Positions 19,319 through 37,000 of a stretch of 39,904 nucleotides of DNA are shown in pieces. Every line of letters begins with the position of its first letter. Positions within the stretch are counted from its first letter, which is position 1. The translations under genes were made by a program, and so were the position numbers. This DNA comes from Flavobacteriales bacterium (GTDB taxonomy: Bacteria; Bacteroidota; Bacteroidia; Flavobacteriales; UBA1820), in NCBI GenBank assembly GCA_017620815.1, contig JAGAUI010000020.1, positions 1-39,904 on the forward strand, written 5' to 3'. The notes under the pieces are model-generated. The model saw only the letters and a program-made list of their open reading frames with translations. It was not told the DNA's origin and did no database searches.

Positions 19319-19831
19319 TTAGTTTTCCTGTTTCTGTAAATAAGTTTCTGCCATAGCTACTATTTTGGAGAAACCTTTAATTATAGGATAATATAAACAA
19401 CTGAATATACCAACTATGGTAAGAGGTATTCCTATGACATTTCCTTCATAATCAAAGCAAAAAAGAATGCCAGCAATTGTTGTTATTATTGATAGTGCAA
19501 GTAGTATCCCAGCTATAGTATTTATAGCATTTGCAGAAGTAGTGTTTATTTCTTTTTTTTCGTTTTGTGTTGATGTGTATTTTAATAATTCCTCGTATTC
19601 TTCGTCTGTTATGTCTATGACAGGATTAACTTCGGTTTCTTTATACCAAAGATTTTTGTCTGAATCTAATTTGTATCCTTCAACGAAAAAATCATAATAT
19701 TCTCTAACTTTTATGGTTTTACTTGTATCTACTAGTCCCAAAGAGATAAGAAGTTCCTCTCTCTCCTTTTTTTGTTTTTCTATTTTTTCAATTTTTTTCT
19801 GGTTGATGAATTCTTCTAATTGTGTGTTCAT
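19319..19831 (-). CDS. Unknown two-helix membrane protein
   Basis: I do not recognise this 170-residue protein. Residues 1-30 are a highly charged, Lys/Glu-rich probable coiled coil (INQKKIEKIEKQKKEREELL). A polar region follows, with VREYYDFFVEGYKLDSDKNL and many acidic residues. Two hydrophobic segments follow, at about 100-127 (NTIAGILLALSIITTIAGIL) and about 130-155 (VIGIPLTIVGIFSCLYYPI). The last helix is short and amphipathic. It is a probable inner-membrane protein with a cytoplasmic N-terminal part. Its start is 73 nt downstream of the 3' end of the structured RNA described below, and TAACTTTA (19854-19847) is a one-mismatch -7 box that could give it a separate promoter. Confidence 0.65.
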   Translation of the reverse strand: MNTQLEEFINQKKIEKIEKQKKEREELLISLGLVDTSKTIKVREYYDFFVEGYKLDSDKNLWYKETEVNPVIDITDEEYEELLKYTSTQNEKKEINTTSANAINTIAGILLALSIITTIAGILFCFDYEGNVIGIPLTIVGIFSCLYYPIIKGFSKIVAMAETYLQKQEN

Positions 19832-19903
19832 AGGATAATTGTTTTATAAAGTTATATGCAATATTGCCGTCTTTATGTGTGGCTCTATGCACACTTTTTA
19901 AAA

Positions 19904-20105
19904 CAAAAAAGAGGCACAGAACTACTCGTCATACGCCTCTTGGCTCACCACAAGCCATCACACACTATGAGAGCAGTCTGCACCCTATATGGAACAAACT
20001 CCTCAATGTGTGTGAATTACAGCTCGTCTATCTATGCTGAGGTGGTGATTCAGAGGCGATTGAGCTGATATGTCTATGTAAATACGTGTGGTATAATACC
20101 AACAC
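19904..20105 (-). ncRNA. Candidate structured RNA of about 200 nt, 6S-like shape
   Basis: The 321-bp interval between the two flanking genes holds no credible protein gene. On the minus strand I can pair nested helices: 20058-20052 with 19940-19934 (7 bp); a TCACCAC/GTGGTGA helix (20048-20042 with 19951-19945); and a TCACACAC/GTGTGTGA helix near 20015-20008 and 19965-19958. An apical stem, GAGTTTG-type pairing with CAGACTGCTC, closes the rod. A CAGC/GCTG hairpin sits in the large asymmetric bubble. A 5' hairpin occupies 20105-20086. The 3' end is an AGAGGC/GCCTCT hairpin followed by TTTTTTGTTTT. A bubble-containing rod near 200 nt resembles 6S RNA, but identity is unproven; it could be the leader of the 19319 gene. 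The remainder (19832-19903) holds only that gene's leader. Confidence 0.55.
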
Positions 20106-20109
20106 AATA

Positions 20110-20117
20110 CAAATGTA
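20110..20117 (-). promoter_or_regulatory. -7 element of the structured RNA
   Basis: TACATTTG on the minus strand matches the -7 box exactly. The expected initiation point, about 5 nt downstream (20105), coincides with the first base of the 5' hairpin. No consensus -33 was seen at the normal spacing. Confidence 0.5.
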
Positions 20118-20152
20118 TGCAAAATCTGAATATAAAATGATGATGCAAGAAA

Positions 20153-23100
20153 TTATTTGAAGGTGGATTTAAAAGCCTCCACACGGGATTTGCTAGCTCG
20201 GCGGATGATATATTGCCCAGCAGTGGCGTCGCGGTATCTTTCGGTCGCAGTCTCAAAGGCTTTCATGGTGTCATTATCACTGCACATAAAGTCCAGAACA
20301 CCGTTTTTATAACGTAAAAAAATGTATTGGCGGTCATTCTCGCTGTGAAGGTAGATAGTGATTTCGTCTGTCCCTGAAGCACTTTTGGTAATGGATATCT
20401 TGCTGTGAAGAATTAGCATGGTGGGAGATGCACATAGAAAACGTAGCGAAGCAGCGCCAGAATATGATAAAACCCCACTAGAAGAATCCCCCCTCAAACT
20501 AATCCCTTCTAGTGCTATGGTAGAACTGGTTATGTCGCTTTTTTGAGAGATATAGTCCCACGATGAACTGGAACTTTCTGTGATAGAGGGTAGTGCCATT
20601 TGAGAGGCGAGAGAGAGAAGATTTTCGTTTATAAGCGAAGGGAACTCCATGTGCAGGGAAAGGGATATATTTTCCCCTGTAATGTTACCATTGTTCATGT
20701 CATATTCTATCTCTCCTGCCATAGTAGATTTCATAAATCCCGATGGGTCGTTTATAAAGATGTCTCCGTGGGTAGAGAGTCGGCATTCGTCATGAAAGTA
20801 GTGATAGAGAGGGTATGAAGAACTATCGCCCACTATGTAGGTCCCTGTGTAGTCATCGTGGCTTATTATTCCTTGCACGTCACATAGTAGGCTGTGTGAG
20901 GAAATGTCATTGCCCATAAATACTCCTGTAAACCCAGTGTGGGAGTAGATAATGCCGTTGGTGGGTTTATCCCCTGTGGGAGTAAAACAAAGTGTATCAC
21001 CTACTGGAGCATCTATCTTTATACTGCCTGTAATCATACTGGGGCATATATTTTCTATGGGGTACAAACGCCCTCTTAATCCCAGCCCTTTAACGTTGCC
21101 TTTAAGTGTACTTTGTCCTCGGAAACGGAAGTATGCTCCTAATTCATAGTCCCGTTCCATATATGTATCGGCTGCTGCTACAAGATGTCCAGAAGCATCG
21201 GTAGAGATGTCGGTAAAATGCATAGGGTAGGTGATACCATCGGGGTCGGTATAGTCATATGTGGCACTGCCTTTTATCTCGCAAGAGGGGAGTATCTCTA
21301 TGTGTGCGTCATAAAGCCTGTGGTACATACTACTGGTGTCCAGTATAATGATTGCATCATCCAGTGGAGCTATATCTCCACCTGTAAGGATAGCTATGTG
21401 TGAGCTAGATGGAATGATATATGCATCGGCAAATGTGAGGCTGTCTATGCCTTCCACTCTTAAACTATCTCCACCCATGTCATAAACCGCACTCTGGCAA
21501 GGAATTGTAAGCATACATTCTCCATATAGTATGACATTGCCTCGTTTATTTTTACTATAAAAGTTTATGATGGGACTACCATCACTCCACTCTCCTTGGC
21601 AGATGTTTATGTGGGTGTTGAGGCTTTTGATATGTGCAGGATATGAGGCGTTTGTAGAGAAATATCCTGTGTTATATGGGAGAGAATATAAAAATTGGGC
21701 ATTGTTTATGGATACCATATGGGAACTGTCTGTGCCTATTGCCAAGTTTGCATCGCGGGAAAAGATACTATCTCTATGAAATTCTAAACGATGACTATCT
21801 ATCCTGCTGTTTTTCATCATAAAATGTCCATCTCCCGTAAGCGAATGAGGGGATAGATACATTGTCCCTGTGAAATTATAGTCGTAGATGTGGCATAAGG
21901 AACTATCGGTATAGATGGTGATGGTATCACTTTCTGTATCCCAATGTGTAGCTACATCATCAATTGAGGCTTGCGGAGTGTCATATTCTATGCTGTTCTC
22001 TATCTCTACACTAGATAGTGGACTGTCTATTCCATAGGGGTACATACGCAATGATGGAGAGGAAATAGTGGTACTCATGTATGTGTAACGCCCTTCGCCA
22101 GTGAGACCTTTACTGTCAAGGTCTAGAGTGCCATAATATGTGCCACGAGAATAAAGAGGTACTCCGATACTTAAATCGGCCTTCTCAAATCCCAATGTGA
22201 GGTCTTTCATAACGCTAACCCTTCGCTCAAAAGGAGGGACTATACCTCCTGTATGTAGTGTCCCGTCAAAGTATATACTGCTAGTAGAGCGAGAAGATAG
22301 GCTATCCAGTATGAATGGTTCTATCGTGAGAAAGAGATGTTCCCTGCCATATAGGCTATCTAGATGTGGATAAAATATATAAGACTGTGTGGTGGTGGAT
22401 AGCATGGGGTATCTTTTATGTGAGCGTTTCATGGATTTGTCATCGGCATATCCTAGTGTTATCTCTCCGCAGAGGGAGTCAATGGTGTTTTTTATCTGCT
22501 CATGTTTCCCACTGTGTATAGGAACGTGCATCTTCATCTGCGAAGTGCCGCTTAATGTTATACTATTTTTATCATACTCATATTCTGCATGACCATCTAT
22601 GGTAAATAGTCCCAATGTGATACTGCCTCCATAGGAAAAATTACCTCCCTTTTGGGCAATGACGCCTGTGCTATCGGGAGAGAGGTAGATGTTGCCGTCT
22701 ATGGAGAGTTTTACCATCTCCATTCCCGATAGGTCTATATTACCTGTTTCACCGTCCATACGAGCTATGATATCCCTGTCTTTTATCCCATAGTAGGCTA
22801 TGCCGTCATAGTCGCTCTTGCCATGAGCCGAACGTACCATATGTTCAAAACCCGGATACAAGGTAAGAGTATGGTGTAAATAGTCGTAGTATCCGTATCC
22901 TAGACGAGAAATCTCCATAGCTAGCAGAGTAGCGGTAGTAAACGATGAGGCAGTGGCACGAGCGACCTCCTTAATGGTGGTCGCTCGTGCCACCCCACAT
23001 GCCGATAGTATATCATCTAGCGGATTATACTTTCCCACGCCGCGGAAATGACGATATATCTCTCCTTCAAAATACCTAGATGAAATCACCAGTGGCCTTA

Positions 23101-24232
23101 CCCTACTATCAAATGCAAATGCTATATCTTTATCATTACAGTCTATCCTCACAGCACGAGAATACATTTTAAGTCCCGAAAACGAATTGTAAAATGGAGC
23201 AGATGATAGTTTGTCTTCGCTTTGGTATAGAGAGAGAGTGTTTTCTTTTCTATCATAGATGGATAGCAGGAGAGGGTGGGTAATGCTGTCATTGGCTATG
23301 TTTATAGTTACAGAAGAGCGAGGCATGCGTATGCTGCTGTCGCTTATATGTATGCTGTGGCTAAGTATGCTAGCAATAGGTTCATCTGCTTTGCTAGCAG
23401 TAAAGCGTGCGTGATTACTAGATGTTGAGTCCATGTAAATATCACTTCCCTGTATGTGCAGGCGACCACTGGCAGTAAAAGATAGGGTGCTGTCGTGTAT
23501 GTTTATGAGAGATTCGTGGGAGTGAAATATGGGGGATTTGCCATTAGGGAGGAGGTATTCTATCCTTCCGCTTATATTTTTTATGTAATATCGAGGTACA
23601 TCCACACTGGTGTAATTGCTTGAAAGAAGAGGTGTAGAGGGACTTAATCTAGCAGCAGATATGTGGTAGACAATGCTGTCGGTAAGAGAAAGAGGGTATG
23701 ATAACCGTGCCGATTTTATATACATAGAGTCTTGTATAGGGTAGTATAGACCGTTTACAGAATCTATGTGTAAAGAACCTTTGGGGGTGGAGTGTGTTAT
23801 GCGAGCATTGTTTATGGTGTATGATAAGTCTTGTGCATTGATGTGTATGGAATCTCCCTCTATAATCAGTGTATGGATATGGGATGTGTGAAGGCTGTGC
23901 TCTTTAAGAAATGACAGATTGCGGTATAGGGCAGATTCTACTTGCGAAAGAGTAGAACGATTGATAAGTCCCTCTATGGCTAGGCAGTAATCTACCAGTG
24001 TGCTGTCATTTCCACGACATAGCTCTCCTACATATCCTATACTCTCCATAAAGAGTCCCATATTGCTGCGGTCTTTGAGCCCCGTATTCCATACTTTTTC
24101 GCTGGTGGATTCTATCTGTGATATAGTGGTAGGGTGTAGTTTTTTGGGGTCAAAAACATACTCCCCTCTCTGTGCCGTGAGGCTCAAAGAGGGGAGTATT
24201 ATGATGAAAAATAATAAAGTCTTTTTAACCAA
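20153..24232 (-). CDS. Giant secreted beta-rich protein of unknown function
   Basis: This 1359-residue protein has a signal peptide (about 1-20, LLFFIIILPSLSLTAQ). The mature chain is Ser/Thr/Asp-rich with short alternating beta patterns throughout and few cysteines. At least two spaced blocks resemble each other: about 690-727 (YYGTLDLDSKGLTGEGRY) and about 780-832 (FTGTMYLSPHSLTGDGHF, then SRIDSHRLEF). Each is a G-x-L-x-L-S-x-x-(G/S)-L-T-G-x-G pattern followed by an i-x-S strand, pointing to a repetitive beta-helix or beta-sheet architecture. No T9SS signal, lipobox, TonB barrel or enzyme motif was seen. It lies 12 nt after prmA, the last gene of the gpmI operon. I infer an envelope or surface role only from secretion and shape. 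Confidence 0.75.
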   Translation of the reverse strand: MVKKTLLFFIIILPSLSLTAQRGEYVFDPKKLHPTTISQIESTSEKVWNTGLKDRSNMGLFMESIGYVGELCRGNDSTLVDYCLAIEGLINRSTLSQVESALYRNLSFLKEHSLHTSHIHTLIIEGDSIHINAQDLSYTINNARITHSTPKGSLHIDSVNGLYYPIQDSMYIKSARLSYPLSLTDSIVYHISAARLSPSTPLLSSNYTSVDVPRYYIKNISGRIEYLLPNGKSPIFHSHESLINIHDSTLSFTASGRLHIQGSDIYMDSTSSNHARFTASKADEPIASILSHSIHISDSSIRMPRSSVTINIANDSITHPLLLSIYDRKENTLSLYQSEDKLSSAPFYNSFSGLKMYSRAVRIDCNDKDIAFAFDSRVRPLVISSRYFEGEIYRHFRGVGKYNPLDDILSACGVARATTIKEVARATASSFTTATLLAMEISRLGYGYYDYLHHTLTLYPGFEHMVRSAHGKSDYDGIAYYGIKDRDIIARMDGETGNIDLSGMEMVKLSIDGNIYLSPDSTGVIAQKGGNFSYGGSITLGLFTIDGHAEYEYDKNSITLSGTSQMKMHVPIHSGKHEQIKNTIDSLCGEITLGYADDKSMKRSHKRYPMLSTTTQSYIFYPHLDSLYGREHLFLTIEPFILDSLSSRSTSSIYFDGTLHTGGIVPPFERRVSVMKDLTLGFEKADLSIGVPLYSRGTYYGTLDLDSKGLTGEGRYTYMSTTISSPSLRMYPYGIDSPLSSVEIENSIEYDTPQASIDDVATHWDTESDTITIYTDSSLCHIYDYNFTGTMYLSPHSLTGDGHFMMKNSRIDSHRLEFHRDSIFSRDANLAIGTDSSHMVSINNAQFLYSLPYNTGYFSTNASYPAHIKSLNTHINICQGEWSDGSPIINFYSKNKRGNVILYGECMLTIPCQSAVYDMGGDSLRVEGIDSLTFADAYIIPSSSHIAILTGGDIAPLDDAIIILDTSSMYHRLYDAHIEILPSCEIKGSATYDYTDPDGITYPMHFTDISTDASGHLVAAADTYMERDYELGAYFRFRGQSTLKGNVKGLGLRGRLYPIENICPSMITGSIKIDAPVGDTLCFTPTGDKPTNGIIYSHTGFTGVFMGNDISSHSLLCDVQGIISHDDYTGTYIVGDSSSYPLYHYFHDECRLSTHGDIFINDPSGFMKSTMAGEIEYDMNNGNITGENISLSLHMEFPSLINENLLSLASQMALPSITESSSSSWDYISQKSDITSSTIALEGISLRGDSSSGVLSYSGAASLRFLCASPTMLILHSKISITKSASGTDEITIYLHSENDRQYIFLRYKNGVLDFMCSDNDTMKAFETATERYRDATAGQYIIRRASKSRVEAFKSTFK

Positions 24233-35776: not shown

Positions 35777-37000
35777 TCAGTGTTCGTGGCTGTGAGGGAT
35801 AGCACCTGTGTTACCTGCCAATTTAACGCGGTATGTGCCTACCGTAACTACTGTCTCGCCTGCTTTAAGACCACTTTTTACCTCTACCTGTATGCCGTCT
35901 GTCATGCCTATCTGTACGGGTTGTTTTCGGTAGCTCTCGCTGCATGTCTGCACATAGACAAAATATTCGCCTTGTTCTTCTGTGATGGCACCGGTAGGTA
36001 CACATATAGCGTCATGAGAAGAGTCTAGGCGTAGATATACATCGGTAAATGCACCTTCTGGAATATCTCCCGTAGAGTCATATTCTATGGTGAGTGATAG
36101 TAATCCAGATGCAGAAACGCTCTTGGAGTATGTGATGACTTTACCGCCTAGAGATGCAGTGTCATATTTTTTACCATCGGTAGTTATAAATACAGCCGAT
36201 GTTACATGTGATAAATCATTAAAGTATTTCTGTGGAACATCTATTTCCAGACGTGCACGTGTGTTTTTCACTACTTCAAATAGTGTAGCTCCTCTTTCCA
36301 CATAGTCCCCATTTCCTACCGATAATTCTTTTATAAAACCAGTGATAGGACTTTTTACAGTCATTTCGGTAGAGGATTTTTTATTTAATGCAATATATGC
36401 TTTGCGGGCTTTTTCCCACTGGGCACGAGTATCATCATAGCTGTCTTGGGAGATGATACGGTCTATGATAAGGCTATCGGCACGTTGCATGCGGGCGTTC
36501 CACAAGTGGTATTGGGCTTCTATTTCGGCAGCTGATGCTCCAGCGGTGTCATCGGTAGCTATACGCATGATAGAGTTTCCTGCCTTTACCATAGTACCGC
36601 GAGTGGTATTGCTGTTAAATTTAACTATGCCTGTGGTAGGTGCTGTAACGAGTGTAGCTCCTTGTGGAGTTGTGATGATTTTACCTGCTGTTTTTATTAC
36701 TGGGTGGAAGTGTCCTTTGTTTACTTTTTGTGTGGCAAAACTACCTAGTGATGCTTCGTGGGCGGTAAAAGTTATCTCCCCTTCGTTATGTTCATGACCT
36801 TCGTGCGAATGGGCAGAGTGGTCGTGAGCCTCGTTGGAGTGAGCAGAGTGGTCGTGAGCCTCATGTGAATGAGTAGAATGGTCGTGAGCCTCGTTGGAGT
36901 GGGCAGAGTGGTCGTGAGCCTCATGCGAATGAGAGCTTGTATTGGTGCCTCCACAAGCTGCTACACATAGAGCTGTGATGGCTATTATAAGTTTTTTCAT
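35777..37000 (-). CDS. RND periplasmic adaptor lipoprotein with His-rich repeats
   Basis: This membrane-fusion protein links the pump to the outer-membrane channel. A lipoprotein signal ends in VAAC, with Cys16 as the lipidation site. Residues 24-71 form a His-rich extension holding 18 histidines in 48 residues, built from 10-residue units such as EAHDHSAHSN. The adaptor core follows: a barrel-sandwich (lipoyl-like) domain split around KIITTPQGATLVTAPTTGIV and VKSPITGFIKELSVGNGDYV, a helical hairpin, a beta-barrel and a C-terminal domain ending IPHSHEH. Histidines at both ends suggest metal capture in the periplasm. It lies 35 nt before the pump gene. Confidence 0.93.
   Translation of the reverse strand: MKKLIIAITALCVAACGGTNTSSHSHEAHDHSAHSNEAHDHSTHSHEAHDHSAHSNEAHDHSAHSHEGHEHNEGEITFTAHEASLGSFATQKVNKGHFHPVIKTAGKIITTPQGATLVTAPTTGIVKFNSNTTRGTMVKAGNSIMRIATDDTAGASAAEIEAQYHLWNARMQRADSLIIDRIISQDSYDDTRAQWEKARKAYIALNKKSSTEMTVKSPITGFIKELSVGNGDYVERGATLFEVVKNTRARLEIDVPQKYFNDLSHVTSAVFITTDGKKYDTASLGGKVITYSKSVSASGLLSLTIEYDSTGDIPEGAFTDVYLRLDSSHDAICVPTGAITEEQGEYFVYVQTCSESYRKQPVQIGMTDGIQVEVKSGLKAGETVVTVGTYRVKLAGNTGAIPHSHEH
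36811..36930 (-). repeat. In-frame 30-bp tandem repeats encoding the His-rich stretch
   Basis: Four 30-bp units (36811-36840, 36841-36870, 36871-36900, 36901-36930) share a core gtggtcgtgagcctc, with degenerate copies on each side. Units alternate between two 3' variants (cgttggagt and catgygaat), giving a 60-bp higher-order period. Each unit encodes 10 residues, so changes in copy number would stay in frame. Confidence 0.9.

Follow-up and report, generated by a model that had tools for sequence, protein, structure and literature searches.

Few small RNAs have been characterised in gut Bacteroidota. Bacteroidetes 6S RNA (RF01685, 6S-Flavo; RF01693, Bacteroidales-1) has been detected, together with pRNAs, in B. 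thetaiotaomicron (PMC7366714). Three described systems serve as points of comparison here—Bacteroidetes 6S, attenuating leaders and riboswitches, and type III toxin-antitoxin loci of the ToxIN kind—and the locus we describe resembles each of them in part. It lies in a window of 39,904 nt, the whole stretch of DNA analysed, from a gut Flavobacteriales bacterium (GCA_017620815.1, contig JAGAUI010000020.1, positions 1 to 39,904 of the forward strand); the genome carrying it is called G000, and its congeners G001, G002, and G003. An initial annotation had proposed a structured RNA of about 200 nt on the minus strand, possibly 6S, with an undescribed small RNA or leader family as the fallback. The structured RNA is real and the fallback reading stands; the 6S identification does not survive. 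No Rfam family matches anywhere in the window at gathering scores.

The likeness to Bacteroidetes 6S is one of form: the element is about 200 nt long, rod-like with a bubble, intergenic, and closed by a 3' terminator. It differs from Bacteroidetes 6S in having no sequence or model match, in missing the conserved UAAACUCAACA and GGAGUUUA segments at the expected positions, and in forming a rod that breaks up the element's own terminator. Loose Rfam thresholds returned five weak matches near the element, none of them 6S. The models RF00013, RF01693, and RF01685 had no match in G000; since RF00013 found no 6S at all in this genome, its missing match at the element was at first uninformative. A covariance model of the lineage's own 6S (R1), made from 18 aligned Flavobacteriales loci that match 6S-Flavo or Bacteroidales-1, shows changes on both sides that keep pairing in 20 of its 27 pairs. 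R1 gives one strong match in G000 (G000:C19:16873-17085, equivalent to L057:1501-1713; E ~1e-12, 66.6 bits) and matches in all three congeners as well. The 6S gene of this genome is thus located on contig C19, between genes that we take, from their sequences and general knowledge, to encode a ZapA-like protein and RNase Y (rny), and the element is not that gene. In the window R1 has no match, and with all filters off its best match overlapping the RNA on its strand reaches 0.8 bits. Rfam, the lineage model, and the separate 6S locus together rule out a 6S identity.

Two observations concern Bacteroidetes 6S itself. The G000 6S was missed by RF00013 and RF01685 and found by R1. In five genomes RF01693 and RF01685 match the same loci (L008/L012, L009/L017, L004/L019, L007/L020, and L006/L021), with every RF01693 match there below its gathering score; hence, in this order, Bacteroidales-1 and 6S-Flavo mark one RNA, Bacteroidetes 6S.

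The element occupies positions 19905..20105 on the minus strand, beginning with a 5' hairpin (20105-20086) that is followed by a rod (20078-19915) or, alternatively, by local hairpins. It was found in only one other searched genome, G002, the Flavobacteriales MAG RGIG7177 from water buffalo cecum (the sole genome found in a GTDB scan), where it sits at the same junction beside the counterpart of the downstream gene, ORF170. The two copies are identical at 231/232 positions over 20124-19893. Their sole difference, A to G at 20089, replaces U-A with U-G in the 5' hairpin and so keeps the pairing. Between the same two species the 6S RNAs are 95.4% identical and the RNase P RNAs, located elsewhere in G000, are 93.7% identical, while four-fold degenerate sites in six neighbouring genes differ at 231/708 positions (33%). 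The element is significantly more conserved than RNase P RNA (p = 0.0009); relative to 6S, the difference is significant only when gaps are counted (p = 0.0045; otherwise 0.11). The conserved block starts at the promoter box and stops shortly beyond the terminator, and the noncoding DNA adjoining it is identical at only 13/26 and 14/22 positions (50-64%). Such identity against diverged flanks marks the interval as a real functional unit. Purifying selection probably explains it better than recent gene exchange, since both flanks have diverged and the block ends at the promoter box and the terminator. No reading frame is open throughout the block in either genome, so the block is not coding and a small peptide encoded within it is ruled out; neither tRNA nor tmRNA was found in the window.

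Outside these two genomes the trail is short. In G001, the third species of the genus, the upstream large gene and the meaB-like gene are immediate neighbours: RNA and ORF170 are both missing from the junction, and neither was found elsewhere in that genome. G003 is 81% complete, and because its assembly yielded no upstream large gene it is uninformative on the presence of the RNA. Searches for homologues by DNA in 398 genomes of the order found none beyond chance apart from G002, and two covariance models, one for each fold described below, found none beyond chance in 298 genomes. The plasmids searched held no homologue; phages gave a single weak match at chance level (23% coverage, E 0.8), and exact 18-mers compared with viral contigs gave isolated matches of 18-19 nt only. 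On these sequence comparisons the RNA is restricted to one genus and unusually constrained among the genomes searched.

At 20110..20117 on the minus strand stands TACATTTG, an exact match to the Bacteroidetes -7 box (consensus TANNTTTG) placed to fit a start at ~20105. The initial annotation had drawn its predicted start from this box, which is present as claimed and lies within the block conserved in G002; upstream of 20125 the DNA is only 13/26 identical. Exact -7 motifs are no rarer than expected in the window (35 found, 34.9 expected by chance), so the box alone is not significant, and no clear -33 box was seen upstream of the RNA. The candidate promoter consequently rests on position and conservation. 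Overlapping the -7 box is an upstream element, ATTTTGCATACA (TTGCATAYA; 20114..20125, minus strand), which recurs upstream of ORF170: a second TTGCATATA element at 19845..19864 (minus strand), identical in G002, marks the probable ORF170 promoter region. The spacing between the two is 261 bp in both genomes, and they are two of only three exact TTGCATAYA copies in the window. Over 19 nt the ORF170 upstream region is 74% like the promoter region of the RNA gene; a conserved consensus -7 box is absent from the stretch between the terminator and ORF170. At the other end of the RNA stands an intrinsic terminator, AGAGGCGUAUGACGAGUAGUUCUGUGCCUCU-UUUUU (19905..19940, minus strand), whose hairpin is computed at -12.2 kcal/mol when folded alone and is followed by a U tract. 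The element thus has the features of an intergenic structured small RNA, with a promoter-like box, an intrinsic terminator, a stable conserved structure, and no coding frame, where the promoter means the -7 box and its conservation only.

The minimum-energy fold is a rod interrupted by an asymmetric bubble that contains a small hairpin; over 216 nt it is computed at -74.9 kcal/mol, far more stable than the folds of shuffled sequences (z = -4.9; none of 200 shuffles folds as well). The rod of nested helices proposed by the initial annotation is therefore borne out as the minimum-energy fold, and the terminator it described is also found; the small hairpin in the bubble is weakly predicted (pair probability ~0.2), and the rod and the terminal hairpin with U tract, which it had drawn as one structure, are instead two alternative states. 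The rod pairs the 5' arm of the terminator (AGAGGCG) with CGCCUCU at 20058-20052 and the 3' arm (UCUGUG) with CAUAGA at 20078-20073; inverted repeat I5 belongs to this arrangement. It uses both terminator arms, hence rod and terminator exclude each other. In the alternative, local fold there are five successive hairpins, the last of which is the terminator. A long central hairpin, UCACACAC...GUGUGUGA (19958..20015, minus strand; inverted repeat I3), is common to both folds, with outer-stem pair probabilities mostly at 0.99.

On energy grounds the two mutually exclusive folds compete, at a predicted -72.6 kcal/mol for the rod and -66.7 kcal/mol for the local hairpins. The ratio of local to full energy is 0.92, whereas rod-preserving controls stand at 0.71 and reach the observed value in 2 of 500 cases; the gain of the rod over the local fold is -5.9 kcal/mol, compared with -0.7 kcal/mol in hairpin-preserving controls, of which 9/500 show so large a gain. 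Both tests are post hoc and both use predicted energies. The element is accordingly modelled as having mutually exclusive terminator and antiterminator-like folds, as judged from predicted energies only, and with two such folds it would be understandable that its helices are frozen on both sides.

Downstream on the same strand, with its start codon 73 nt past the terminator, is ORF170 (19319..19831), which encodes a predicted membrane protein of ~170 aa; its hydrophobic C-terminal segments are predictions read from the sequence. The protein is fast-evolving, with 53% amino acid identity to its G002 counterpart compared with 97-99% for neighbouring metabolic genes; apart from G002, neither G001 nor any other searched genome of the order has it. 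No Pfam or NCBIfam family matches it above cut-off, and weak PADLOC matches to CorA-like models are confined to the hydrophobic segments. The RNA and ORF170 are present or absent together at this junction (present in G000 and G002, absent in G001). Base pairing of the RNA with the start region of ORF170 was considered and rejected, being no better than in shuffles (80/300). The surroundings hold two further features. The minus-strand gene at 20153-24232 encodes a very fast-evolving protein of 1359 aa that begins like a signal peptide and matches no Pfam family above cut-off; over its C-terminal part it is 67% identical to G002, compared with 97-99% for metabolic genes nearby. A 30-nt tandem repeat of ~3.7 copies lies at 36804-36933, within a minus-strand ORF (35777-37000).

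We favour, with a probability of roughly 0.55, the reading that the element is a gene of its own for a structured small RNA, undescribed and lineage-specific, that would act in trans and probably be co-regulated with ORF170. The RNA would be transcribed from its own sigma-A-type promoter at ~20105 on the minus strand, ended by the terminator at 19905, and probably co-regulated with the membrane-protein gene through the common TTGCATA promoter element. The terminator fold would form first and end transcription, and the released RNA may then refold into the rod and act in trans, by protein binding or target pairing; nearly every base would be fixed through its use in two folds, by a partner, or both. 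In its favour count the strong folding, the near-identity in G002 beside faster-changing 6S, RNase P RNA, four-fold sites, and flanks, the limits of the conserved block, the separate 6S gene, and the lack of an open frame. The shared TTGCATAYA at a fixed 261 bp favours two separate, co-regulated promoters, and hence speaks for a stand-alone RNA rather than a simple leader; likewise, ORF170 has a conserved TTGCATATA element to itself, placed in both genomes at precisely 261 bp on the downstream side of the RNA's, which argues for separate transcription starts. Against a stand-alone small RNA stand the restriction of homologues to two genomes, the lack of a -33 box, and the chance frequency of the -7 box. 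The findings themselves are the sequence element, its conservation, the competition of two folds in predicted energy, and a 6S gene at a separate site; transcription of the element, its refolding, and any action in trans are proposals.

The main rival, possible but distinctly less probable, is that the RNA is the 5' leader of ORF170 and works as a transcription attenuator, in which the rod would serve as antiterminator and the local hairpins as the terminated state. The choice of fold might then be made by a ligand, a protein, or the speed of transcription. As in attenuating leaders and riboswitches, competing antiterminator-like and terminator folds lie upstream of a same-strand gene; the short distance to the ORF170 start codon, the closeness of the two folds in energy relative to the controls (in those post hoc tests), and the lack of a conserved consensus -7 box before ORF170 point the same way. 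The joint absence of RNA and ORF170 from G001 and their common strand also fit a leader, and co-occurrence combined with a terminator switch keeps the idea alive. However, the element matches no riboswitch or leader family described in Rfam, its range is one genus, and a promoter-like TTGCATATA element, also conserved, precedes the presumed target gene itself. Constraint far tighter than that on the controlled protein, with its 53% identity, would also be odd for a leader, and the fold tests were done only after the alternative fold had been seen.

It is improbable that the element forms an RNA-protein module with ORF170, such as a toxin-antitoxin or defence pair, in which ORF170 would be a membrane effector restrained by the RNA. 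A conserved RNA beside a fast-evolving membrane protein, co-present or co-absent in congeners, would suit such a pair, and the order of promoter, RNA, terminator, and ~170 aa protein recalls ToxIN loci. Unlike those loci, this one has no tandem repeats in its RNA and a protein with predicted hydrophobic segments, in which neither ToxN nor any other toxin domain scores above cut-off; nor was spread to plasmids or phages seen. A type III toxin-antitoxin system, lacking here both a tandem-repeat RNA antitoxin and a ToxN-like toxin, was rejected. Slightly more improbable still is that the constraint acts on the DNA, as an operator, recombination, or replication site with an incidental RNA fold: every base is constrained, both helix strands included, and the promoter holds a palindrome (ATACATTTGTAT), but the block is bounded by the promoter box and the terminator and folds far more strongly than shuffles. 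Least credible, at next to no chance, is 6S RNA, which length and rod-like shape recommend and which the lack of an Rfam match and an R1 score of at most 0.8 bits at the element, against 66.6 bits at the true 6S, contradict.

Constraint as strong as that seen here normally accompanies wide distribution. It is unusual for an RNA to evolve more slowly than RNase P RNA and yet occur in only two known genomes, here as two near-identical copies with one difference, and the case is a reminder that a 6S-like shape must not pass for 6S. There is a small chance that a bistable, genus-restricted RNA under tighter constraint than 6S and RNase P RNA works as a unit with a fast-evolving membrane protein, as a novel regulatory or defence module of RNA and protein or as a novel class of ligand-sensing leader. 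For gut Bacteroidota, the locus would offer a clean system in which to test bistable RNA folding or the pairing of an RNA with a protein.
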